This document shows positions 10,613 to 61,487 of a DNA stretch of 64,000 nucleotides, piece after piece. The translations under genes and the position numbers were made by a program. The notes under the pieces are model-generated. The model worked only from the letters and a program-made list of their open reading frames with translations. It was not told the origin of the DNA and did not search any database. Positions within the stretch are counted from its first letter, which is position 1. Every line of letters begins with the position of its first letter. Source of the DNA: Phycisphaerales bacterium (GTDB lineage: Bacteria; Planctomycetota; Phycisphaerae; UBA1845); contig QZJT01000124.1 in the NCBI GenBank assembly GCA_003597935.1, positions 1 to 64,000 of the forward strand, read 5' to 3'.

Positions 10613-10772
10613 GACGTCGTCTCACACGATTCCTGAGAATCCGGTACCTTCCAACTCACCCGTCGGCGCTTCGCCGAAAAGCCGCCTGGCCCGGACTGAG
10701 TGCTTTCTGCATTCGTTATTCGTTATTCGACATTCGACATTCGACATTCCTGACGGGCGCAATCATGGGCGC

Positions 10773-15771: not shown

Positions 15772-17022
15772 ATGCGCAGCTCAGTGCCCACCTGGATGGC
15801 GATCGGAATGGTCATGACGTGGGGATGCTCATCGAACAGCGGCGGCCGTTTTCAGGATCCGGCGGCCGGGCATGAGCCGGAAGACGCGCTGGTCCGCAGC
15901 GCCCTGCGCGTCCACCAGTCGGCGATCGTGATCGACGGACACAACGACCTGCCCGGCGAGCTGCGCACGAAATCCGCGTCGGGCTTCGACGTCATCGACA
16001 TCGCGCAGCCCCAGCCCTCGCTGCACACGGACATTCCGCGCCTGCGGGCCGGCGGCGTAGGGGCGCAGTTCTGGTCGGCCTATGTGCCGGTGTCCACCAT
16101 CGAATCCGGCGGGGCGGCGCGTTTCGCCCTGGAGCAGATCGACCTCATCAAGCGGATGGCCGCGCGCTACCCGGATGCCTTCGAGATGGCGTACAGCGCC
16201 GCCGACGTCGAGCGGATCCACCGCCGCGGGCGGATCGCGTCGCTGATCGGCGTCGAAGGCGGTCACGCCATCGAGAACTCGCTGGGGGCGCTGCGGATGT
16301 TCTACGAGCTGGGGGCGCGCTACCTGACGCTGACGCACACGAAGTCGCTCGACTGGGCGGACTCGTGCAGCGACGAGCCGAAAAGCGGCGGGCTGTCGCC
16401 GTTCGGCGAGCAGGTGGTGCGCCAGATGAACCGGCTGGGCATGCTGGTGGATATTTCGCACGTGTCGGCGGACACCATGCGGGCGGTGCTGCGGGTGTCC
16501 GAGGCGCCGGTGATCGCGTCGCACTCGTCGGCATACGCGCTGGTGCCCCATCCGCGGAACGTGCCGGATGACGTGTTGACACTTATCGCCGGGAACGGAG
16601 GCGTGGTGATGGTGAACTTCTATCCGGTCTTCATCGCGGCGGAGGGGGGCGAGTTCTCGAAGGCCCGGACGGAGGCGCGGGCGTCGCTGCGGGCCCGGTA
16701 CGAGGACGAAGAGGCGTTCAAAGCCGCCTACGACGCCTGGCAGCGCAAGCACCCCGAGCCGGCCGCGACGATCGACACGGTGGTGGACCACATCGACCAT
16801 ATCGTGAAGGTGGCCGGGGTCGATCACGTCGGACTCGGATCGGATTTCGACGGCGTGCCGAGCCTGCCGGCGGGGCTGGAGGACGTATCGAAGTTCCCCG
16901 CCCTCACCATCGAACTGCTGCGGCGCGGCTACACGGACGCGGACGTCAGGAAGATCCTGGGCGGGAACCTGCTGCGGGCGCTGCGCGAGGCGGAGCGGGT
17001 CGCGGCGGAGTTGGAAGGTTGA
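15772..17022 (+). CDS. Membrane dipeptidase (peptidase family M19)
   Basis: IVIDGHNDLPGEL; LIGVEGGHAIENSLGALRMFYELGARYLTLTH; VDISHVSADTM; VDHVGLGSDFDGV. Confidence 0.95.
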   Translation: MRSSVPTWMAIGMVMTWGCSSNSGGRFQDPAAGHEPEDALVRSALRVHQSAIVIDGHNDLPGELRTKSASGFDVIDIAQPQPSLHTDIPRLRAGGVGAQFWSAYVPVSTIESGGAARFALEQIDLIKRMAARYPDAFEMAYSAADVERIHRRGRIASLIGVEGGHAIENSLGALRMFYELGARYLTLTHTKSLDWADSCSDEPKSGGLSPFGEQVVRQMNRLGMLVDISHVSADTMRAVLRVSEAPVIASHSSAYALVPHPRNVPDDVLTLIAGNGGVVMVNFYPVFIAAEGGEFSKARTEARASLRARYEDEEAFKAAYDAWQRKHPEPAATIDTVVDHIDHIVKVAGVDHVGLGSDFDGVPSLPAGLEDVSKFPALTIELLRRGYTDADVRKILGGNLLRALREAERVAAELEG

Positions 17023-17110
17023 AGGTCGAAGGTTGGCAGGTTGGGAGGTTGCAGGTTGGAAGGTTGAAGGTTGGGAGGTTGCAGGTTGGAGGTTGCAGGT
17101 TGCGGGTTAC
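17020..17110 (+). repeat. Low-complexity GGTTGNAGGTTG repeat at 3' end of dipeptidase gene
   Basis: ggttgaaggtcgaaggttggcaggttgggaggttgcaggttggaaggttg... Confidence 0.85.
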
Positions 17111-17443
17111 AGGGGCGGAAGGTCGGTTGGCCAAGGGTCGAACGTCGAAGGTTGAAGGCCGAGGGGTCGGGGGTGACGGGGGAGACGGGGCGGAAGCGCA
17201 CGGAACGCGAATGTGAATCCGCCACCGTTGCGTGGCGGGCGGGTAAAAGCTGGCGGCCCATCGGGCGGCTTCGATGGCGGTTCTGCGGCGGGGCGATTCG
17301 CTTTCCCGGGCTTTAAGGAACAGGCGCGTCGTCCCGCCTTTTGTTGCTCCCATAGCCGGACTTGGCAGGGTCCGGCGGCGCCGAGCGAGCGGGCGTCCGG
17401 CCCTTGAACTCGCCGCGGAGTTCGGCTACAGTTAGGGTGACGC

Positions 17444-20131: not shown

Positions 20132-20144
20132 CCCTCAACCTCTC

Positions 20145-20272
20145 CACCTTCCAGCCTCCAACTTTCTAACCTTCCAACCTTCTAACTTTCCAACCTTCCA
20201 ACCTTCCAACCTTCCAACCTTCCAACTTTCCAACCTTCTAACCTTCCAACCTGCAACCTTCCAACCCTACCC
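20145..20272 (+). repeat. Low-complexity AACCTTCCAACC repeat
   Basis: ccttccaaccttccaaccttccaac... about 12 imperfect units between two genes. Confidence 0.9.
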
Positions 20273-45617: not shown

Positions 45618-45846
45618 GTGAGCCACCCCTGCGGCAGCGGGTGCTGGGGGGCGGCTCAAGATCAAAACCGATTCGCCGGAGAGCCACCCCTGCGGCAGCG
45701 GGTGCTGGCAGTCCATCCCGTCCATGCAGTCCATCCCGTCCATCCCGTCCATTCACCCCTGCGGCACCGGGTGCTGGCAGTCCATCCCGTCCATGCAGTC
45801 CATCCCGTCCATCCCGTCCATTCACCCCTGCGGCACCGGGTGCGGG
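45618..45846 (+). repeat. Direct repeats: CCCCTGCGGCACCGGGTGCTGG palindrome plus (GTCCATCCC)n / GTCCATGCAGTCCATC motif
   Basis: A 69-bp unit (tcacccctgcggcaccgggtgctggcagtccatcccgtccatgcagtccatcccgtccatcccgtccat) present nearly twice, plus variants. Confidence 0.9.
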
Positions 45847-46021: not shown

Positions 46022-46050
46022 TTGCCTTTGCCGTCGGAACGAGCTATCTT
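46022..46050 (+). promoter_or_regulatory. Candidate rnpB promoter
   Basis: TTGCCT-N17-TATCTT, 6-7 nt before predicted RNA 5' end. Confidence 0.6.
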
Positions 46051-46056
46051 CTCTTT

Positions 46057-46720
46057 GGCGGAGTGGGCGGAGGCGATCGCGTTCCCGGCATCCCGCGCTG
46101 CGCGTCGTACAGCGCCCGGAAGGCGACTACACTCTGAGCCCCCGCATTCATGCGGGGGTCCACCGGCTGGAAGCCGGTGCCACACACAGGACGCGTCGCG
46201 CGGGATGCCGGGGATGAGGAAAGTCCGAACTGGACAGGGCGCGGTGGTTGTTAACGGCAACCCGGCGTGAGCCGAGGGAAAGTGCCACAGAAAACACACC
46301 GCCTAAGCTGGAGACTAGAGACTGGAGAACTAGAGACTAGAAAGAACAACCTATCGAAGCACGATGCCCATCGCGGCGCAGGCGTGCCGCTCTTTCTAGT
46401 TTCTAGTTCTCCAGTCTCCAGTCTCTAGTCTCTAGCCGGTAAGGGTGAAAAGGTGCGGTAAGAGCGCACCGCGTCCGCCGTGAGGCGGATGGCAGGGTAA
46501 ACCCCACCGCCAGCAAGCCCAAATAGGCGGCAAGAGGCGGCCCGTCTCGATGGGGGCTTCGGCCCCTGAAAGCCGCGGGTAGGGTGCAAGAGCCGTCGGG
46601 CGACCGGCGGCCTCAGATGAATGATCGCCCGGGCGATCCGCAGGGCCGGCGCGCCTCCGCGCGTGACCGGCCCCCAAACAGATCGCCCGACAGAATTCGG
46701 CTTACCACGCCCACTCCGCC
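46057..46720 (+). ncRNA. rnpB: RNase P RNA, bacterial class A, with enlarged P3 and P12
   Basis: GGATGAGGAAAGTCCGAACTGGACAGGGCG, GGGAAAGTGCCACAGAAAACACACCGCC, GGTAAGGGTGAAAAGGTGCGGTAAGAGCGCACCG, GGCAGGGTAAACCCCACC..AGCAAGCCCAAATAGG, AGATGAATGATCGCCC, ACAGAATTCGGCTTA; P1 GGCGGAGTGGGCG / CGCCCACTCCGCC. Confidence 0.95.
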
Positions 46721-59092: not shown

Positions 59093-59305
59093 GTGTGGCA
59101 CCGGTTTTCAACCGGTGATTGGCATGTGGCACCGGTTTCCAACCGGTGATTGGGATGTGGCACCGGTTTCCAACCGGCGGAACTGAGTGTGGCACCGGTT
59201 TCCAACCGGTGAATCTGAAGTAGGTCAGCCCAAGCTTACCGGATGAAATCCGGTGCCACAGACTGGAATTGCAGACACCGGTTGCAAACCGGTGCCACAT
59301 ACTTT
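59093..59305 (+). repeat. Cluster of six CCGGTT(N)AACCGG REP-like palindromes between clpP paralogs
   Basis: Four GTGGCACCGGTTTCCAACCGG copies then two copies in the opposite orientation. Confidence 0.95.
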
Positions 59306-61377: not shown

Positions 61378-61468
61378 AAAGACACCGGTTGAAAACCGGT
61401 GCCACACTCGGACACCGGCTGGAAGCCGGCGCCACACTCGGACACCGGCTGGAAGCCGGCGCCACACC
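61378..61468 (+). repeat. Three REP-like palindromes between flgF and flgG
   Basis: acaccggttgaaaaccggtgccacac and two tandem cggacaccggctggaagccggcgccacac. Confidence 0.93.
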
Positions 61469-61487
61469 GGAGTCGGAGTTGCGCTAG

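Follow-up and report, generated by a model that had tools for sequence, protein, structure and literature searches.

Introduction

Butler and Fuerst (in 2004) reportedly described planctomycete RNase P RNAs with P12 and P19 of variable length, and we know of no study that ties this variation to dispersed repeats. The helices P3, P12 and P19 are peripheral in RNase P structures.

Repetitive DNA within the RNase P RNA gene (rnpB) has been described in two other groups of bacteria. Rickettsia palindromic elements (RPE) occur in the rnpB (M1 RNA) and tmRNA genes (Ogata 2002, reviewed in PMC2229807), and heptamers of short tandemly repeated repetitive (STRR) type are reported in rnpB of heterocyst-forming cyanobacteria (Vioque 1997, NAR 25:3471). 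A further class of relevance is the GTAG-tagged REP/BIME, consisting of a hairpin and a tetranucleotide tag, which occurs in many copies and in inverted pairs, planctomycetes included (PMC3733652).

We analysed rnpB in a 64,000-nucleotide stretch of DNA (the window: contig QZJT01000124.1, positions 1 to 64,000, forward strand) from a Phycisphaerales MAG (GCA_003597935.1), in which an earlier note, made from the letters alone, had pointed out an oversized gene with repeat-derived expansions in P3 and P12. The gene probably encodes a class A RNase P RNA that would still be active and whose surface helices gathered repeat DNA from the genome.

Results

Identity and core of the gene

The RF00010 model (Rfam) matched positions 46189-46626 with 212.8 bits (E 1.3e-67), above the gathering cut-off of 100 bits. 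Since all 13 positions of the P1 arms (46057-46069 and 46708-46720) are complementary, the RNA is estimated at ~664 nt, and the match was probably local because of the enlarged P1-P3 and P19 segments.

46045..46050, forward strand: probable -10 box TATCTT, 6 nt 5' of P1 (read from the sequence)
46057..46720, forward strand: rnpB, class A RNase P RNA, from P1 to P1' (RF00010, 212.8 bits; complementary P1 arms; single copy)

The fold of the whole RNA had an energy of -387.9 kcal/mol (z = -14 versus 20 shuffles). When columns at least 95% conserved in relatives were selected from three core segments (150 columns), 148 were retained in the MAG gene; the two departures, G to C and C to G, are opposed across the P14 tetraloop and form a compensating pair. 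Judged from these columns, the core is conserved and under constraint. The rnpA gene was present, and no second RNase P RNA was found in the 4.3-Mb assembly, which is 77% complete and from which a second rnpB could be missing. An oversized class A rnpB with an intact core, as in the earlier note, was thus borne out.

No promoter was called by a strict scan upstream of the gene; TATAAT/TACAAT-like boxes were seen in many relatives at the place corresponding to TATCTT, before GGCGGAGTGGGCG, just 5' of P1. A 69-bp tandem repeat with CCATCCCGTCCAT words (45685-45843, 2.3 copies, 98%) is located ~200 nt upstream of rnpB. Among named genomes, a looser pattern yielded 17 loci related to the MAG gene, mostly from Planctomycetota/Phycisphaerae, and a strict pattern for close relatives gave no match; the relatives compared come from outside the genus. 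A core-rnpB tree had low support and was left unused.

A dispersed palindromic repeat in P3

46084..46106, forward strand: P3 5' arm (inverted repeat, 91% over 23 nt)
46127..46189, forward strand: dispersed composite palindromic repeat in P3, CATTCATG hairpin plus CACCGGCTGGAAGCCGGTGCCAC hairpin (genome matches; copy alignment)
46139..46158, forward strand: first hairpin of the P3 insert, CCCCCGCATTCATGCGGGGG (read from the sequence; copy alignment)
46161..46183, forward strand: second hairpin of the P3 insert, with a CCAC tail, the other strand starting with GTGG (166 genomic sites)
46190..46212, forward strand: P3 3' arm (inverted repeat with the 5' arm, 91% over 23 nt)

The P3 stem had been proposed to hold an insertion containing CCCCCGCATTCATGCGGGGG and CACCGGCTGGAAGCCGGTGCCAC and belonging to a REP-like family interspersed in the window. 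The stem (23-nt arms 46084-46106 and 46190-46212, 91% complementary) and both words were found as described, and CACCGGCTGGAAGCCGGTGCCAC, the core word of the insert, occurred at 166 sites genome-wide with up to 2 mismatches (reversed control, 0). The 103-nt P3 segment 46098-46200 gave 98 matches in its own genome, itself included, and ~35 further composite copies aligned with 46127-46189. Full composite copies were mostly 85-98% identical to the insert (98% over 48 nt for a copy on contig C3), and their stem positions covary (GGCATTCATGCC to CGCATTCATGCG; GGTTGGAAACC to GGCTGGAAGCC). These alignments show that P3 contains a composite repeat at full length, of which other copies are scattered over the MAG genome, and the assignment to the interspersed family holds.

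As in REP/BIME, the insert has a palindrome of 20-40 bp in many copies. Its reverse strand starts with GTGGC, as against the GTAG/CGTC tag of REP hairpins; GTGG is a reported variant of the GTAG tag (PMC3733652). At 161 nt, the MAG P1-P3 segment exceeded those of all other genes in a set of 60 distinct rnpB genes, for which the median was 48 nt. Exact matches to the family of this repeat (CACCGG) occurred in 19 of 60 genomes, with a copy inside rnpB in two. The CACCGG palindrome is also found in tandem arrays of 30-31 nt in the window (59094-59212 and 61381-61471).

Genes of the Y1_Tnp (RAYT) type were detected in 39 of 40 genomes, including five in the MAG. At the one RAYT locus inspected (L159, G000:C52, ~600-680 and 1300-1365), long palindromes in inverted orientation, GTAGCTACGGGTGGAGC/GCTCCACCCGTGGCTAC, surround a Y1_Tnp/RAYT-type gene. 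They are distinct from the P3 family, a copy of which lies ~200 nt downstream of the gene; the locus is a candidate REPtron. A RAYT or another enzyme may have mobilised the P3 repeat. Because ~166 copies are scattered in the genome, no special targeting would be needed for one to land in an RNA gene of ~380 nt: a rough estimate gives ~0.1 such events expected per genome if only intergenic hits are considered.

A heptad hairpin in P12, and an enlarged P19

46308..46345, forward strand: P12 5' arm, CTRGAGA heptads (inverted repeat)
46391..46435, forward strand: P12 3' arm, one heptad longer than the 5' arm (inverted repeat; tandem repeat)
46630..46689, forward strand: enlarged P19 hairpin (CGGGCGATC/GATCGCCCG stem in folds)

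The long, nearly perfect P12 hairpin of repeat words that the earlier note had recognised was confirmed: the 38-nt arms 46308-46345 and 46391-46428, made of CTRGAGA heptads, are 92% complementary. In the 239 kb of the MAG genome searched, eight hairpins had arms of 22 nt or more, and those of P12 were the longest. The 3' arm has a tandem period of 7 with 5.7 copies, as expected for the short heptamer repeats of STRR. The enlargement of P19 had been overlooked.

In the MAG genome, CTRGAGA heptads were found only at the rnpB sites, even with 3 mismatches in 21 allowed, and a dispersed family was ruled out at both 0 and 3 mismatches. Of the two repeat families said to have inserted into this gene, the one in P3 was therefore substantiated by dispersed copies, and the one in P12 was not. 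On the other hand, scattered arrays of CTRGAGA heptads were present in the genomes of relatives (e.g., G016, G032, G035 and G038), and a repeat origin of the MAG P12 is plausible.

As for other sources, a search of plasmids gave no match to P12, and a phage source of rnpB was rejected: the few matches in phage collections were partial (14-27% of the query, 76-81% identity). Other tandem arrays of 7-8 nt (GGTTG, CAACCTTC and CATTCGA types) lie in the window at 17010-17113, 20136-20266 and 10710-10749. The reversed control of the heptad search gave 141 matches, which suggests that GAAGGTTG-like arrays are common in the MAG genome.

Length variation and repeats in the rnpB genes of relatives

Most relatives, as the earlier note had not taken into account, have an rnpB longer than that of E. 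coli: among the 60 distinct genes, the median was ~449 nt and the maximum 807 nt, so that the MAG gene exceeds the local norm by ~215 nt. The P12 region varied from 16 to 355 nt (median, 44.5) and was at least 80 nt long in 24 of 60 genes, most of which fold better here than shuffles. Between genera, P12 sequences were mostly unrelated, yet gave long-hairpin folds.

Several relatives carry repeats of their own. P19 of G011 contains the same CACCGG family as the MAG P3 (whole-genome match G011:C12:25772-25793, within rnpB), and P12 of this genome a GTAGGGTCCGC palindrome. P12 of G014 contains two dispersed repeats (no matches with reversed rnpB-segment sequences), and that of G059 an inverted pair of GTAG-tagged GTAGGGTGGGC REPs, representing 2 of 25 genomic copies (control, 0). 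In ~10 relatives, P12 is built from RAAACGNN octamers, dispersed at 135, 126 and 39 sites in G002, G007 and G031 (controls 0, 10 and 0, respectively). For eight other rnpB genes (G008, G049, G021, G013, G016, G057, G017 and G039), searches of 35-97 kb of their own genomes did not recover the expansion repeats; the samples are small, which makes this absence weak evidence, and the single weak match was to a G057 query from the core. In the rnpB of G049 (L003), P12 forms a nearly perfect duplex of ~60 bp that includes AAAAAGGTGTCAGGAACCTTTTTT; a sequence resembling it, AAAAAGGTGTCAGGATGATTTTT, forms a perfect hairpin with 23-nt arms in the MAG genome (L138, 18810-18928). From the sequences compared, repeat capture in the relatives is independent, involving differing repeat families and differing helices (P12 and P19).

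Discussion

We propose that the loop of P3 received a copy of the dispersed palindromic repeat with its two hairpins, which would form their own structure past P3, distant from the active site, and that the copy would be tolerated for this reason. P12, free to vary in this order, would have been lengthened by a heptamer-repeat array; because both arms remain complementary, the helix could grow without disturbing the core. The inserts in P3, P12 and P19 are predicted to fold on themselves and are probably tolerated, and they may persist in the mature RNA.

How P12 was lengthened is a separate matter. Local replication slippage with template switching in the hairpin, without any insertion, would confine repeat insertion to P3, and we give this about an even chance; as a variant of the preferred explanation, with which it is compatible, it stands equally balanced. 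Slippage-type lengthening fits because P12 is hypervariable in relatives and its sequences are unrelated, and growth of a helix that was variable to begin with agrees with the data no less than a single insertion does. The confinement of the heptads to rnpB in the MAG genome and the inequality of the arms by one heptad point the same way, while the same heptads in scattered arrays of relatives, and other P12 repeats dispersed in the relatives' own genomes, argue for insertion. It is unlikely that the inserts are removed after transcription by RNase III acting on the P12 duplex, so that the RNA would be in pieces yet still assembled, comparable to 23S rRNA with intervening sequences. The nearly perfect duplex of ~38 bp is long enough for RNase III, but repeat-bearing rnpB genes are known in cyanobacteria, and we are aware of no report of fragmentation in their RNAs. 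The more specific form, in which the repeat-built P12 duplex of Phycisphaerae is cleaved in the cell and RNase P works with a two-piece RNA, the split having been created by repeat capture, is quite improbable.

It is also rather improbable that selection maintains the long helices as structural parts of planctomycete RNase P (e.g., for contacts with protein or substrate), their likeness to repeats being incidental. That P12 reaches 80 nt or more in 24 of 60 genes, most of these regions folding better than shuffles, would agree with such a role; however, the sequences and lengths of the helices are unrelated between genera, and selection on rnpB would not yield a P3 insert up to 98% like dispersed repeats. 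An assembly artefact or a pseudogene, conceivable for a repeat-bearing locus from a MAG, is very improbable in view of the intact core, the compensating base-pair change, the single copy and comparable expansions in relatives assembled as a single contig, such as G008. Capture of genomic repeat DNA by the surface helices of a working RNase P RNA is therefore retained as the best explanation.

Across a bacterial order, an essential single-copy ribozyme would thus have repeatedly tolerated the arrival of REP-like, REP/BIME and short-tandem-repeat DNA, a natural experiment that reveals where RNase P RNA accepts extension. Records of REPs inserted into the gene of a structural RNA are rare. A text search of the literature for REP and RNase P RNA returned one review, on mRNA turnover, and nothing on insertion. 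Repeat inserts may also explain truncated rnpB calls by annotation tools, since the Rfam match here covers only 46189-46626.

Among the known systems, the Rickettsia RPE are similar in being dispersed palindromic repeats within the RNase P RNA gene; they measure 105-146 bp, compared with ~60 nt for the MAG REP-like composite, and differ from the situation in the order of the MAG, where several families and several helices are involved. The cyanobacterial STRR are likewise reported as short tandem repetitive sequences in rnpB, whereas in the MAG a single long hairpin, P12, has heptads in its two arms, and its genome lacks dispersed copies of them. The GTAG-tagged REP/BIME share the hairpin and high copy number with the repeats found here and, in G059, also the tag and the inverted pair; in contrast to those described, the present ones lie within a structural RNA gene, and the link of the P3 family to RAYT is a candidate one. 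The presence of palindromic elements (Rickettsia) and STRR (cyanobacteria) in rnpB is therefore already known. What appears to be new is that REP/BIME are captured, that one RNA combines repeats of two classes, and that capture recurs across an order.
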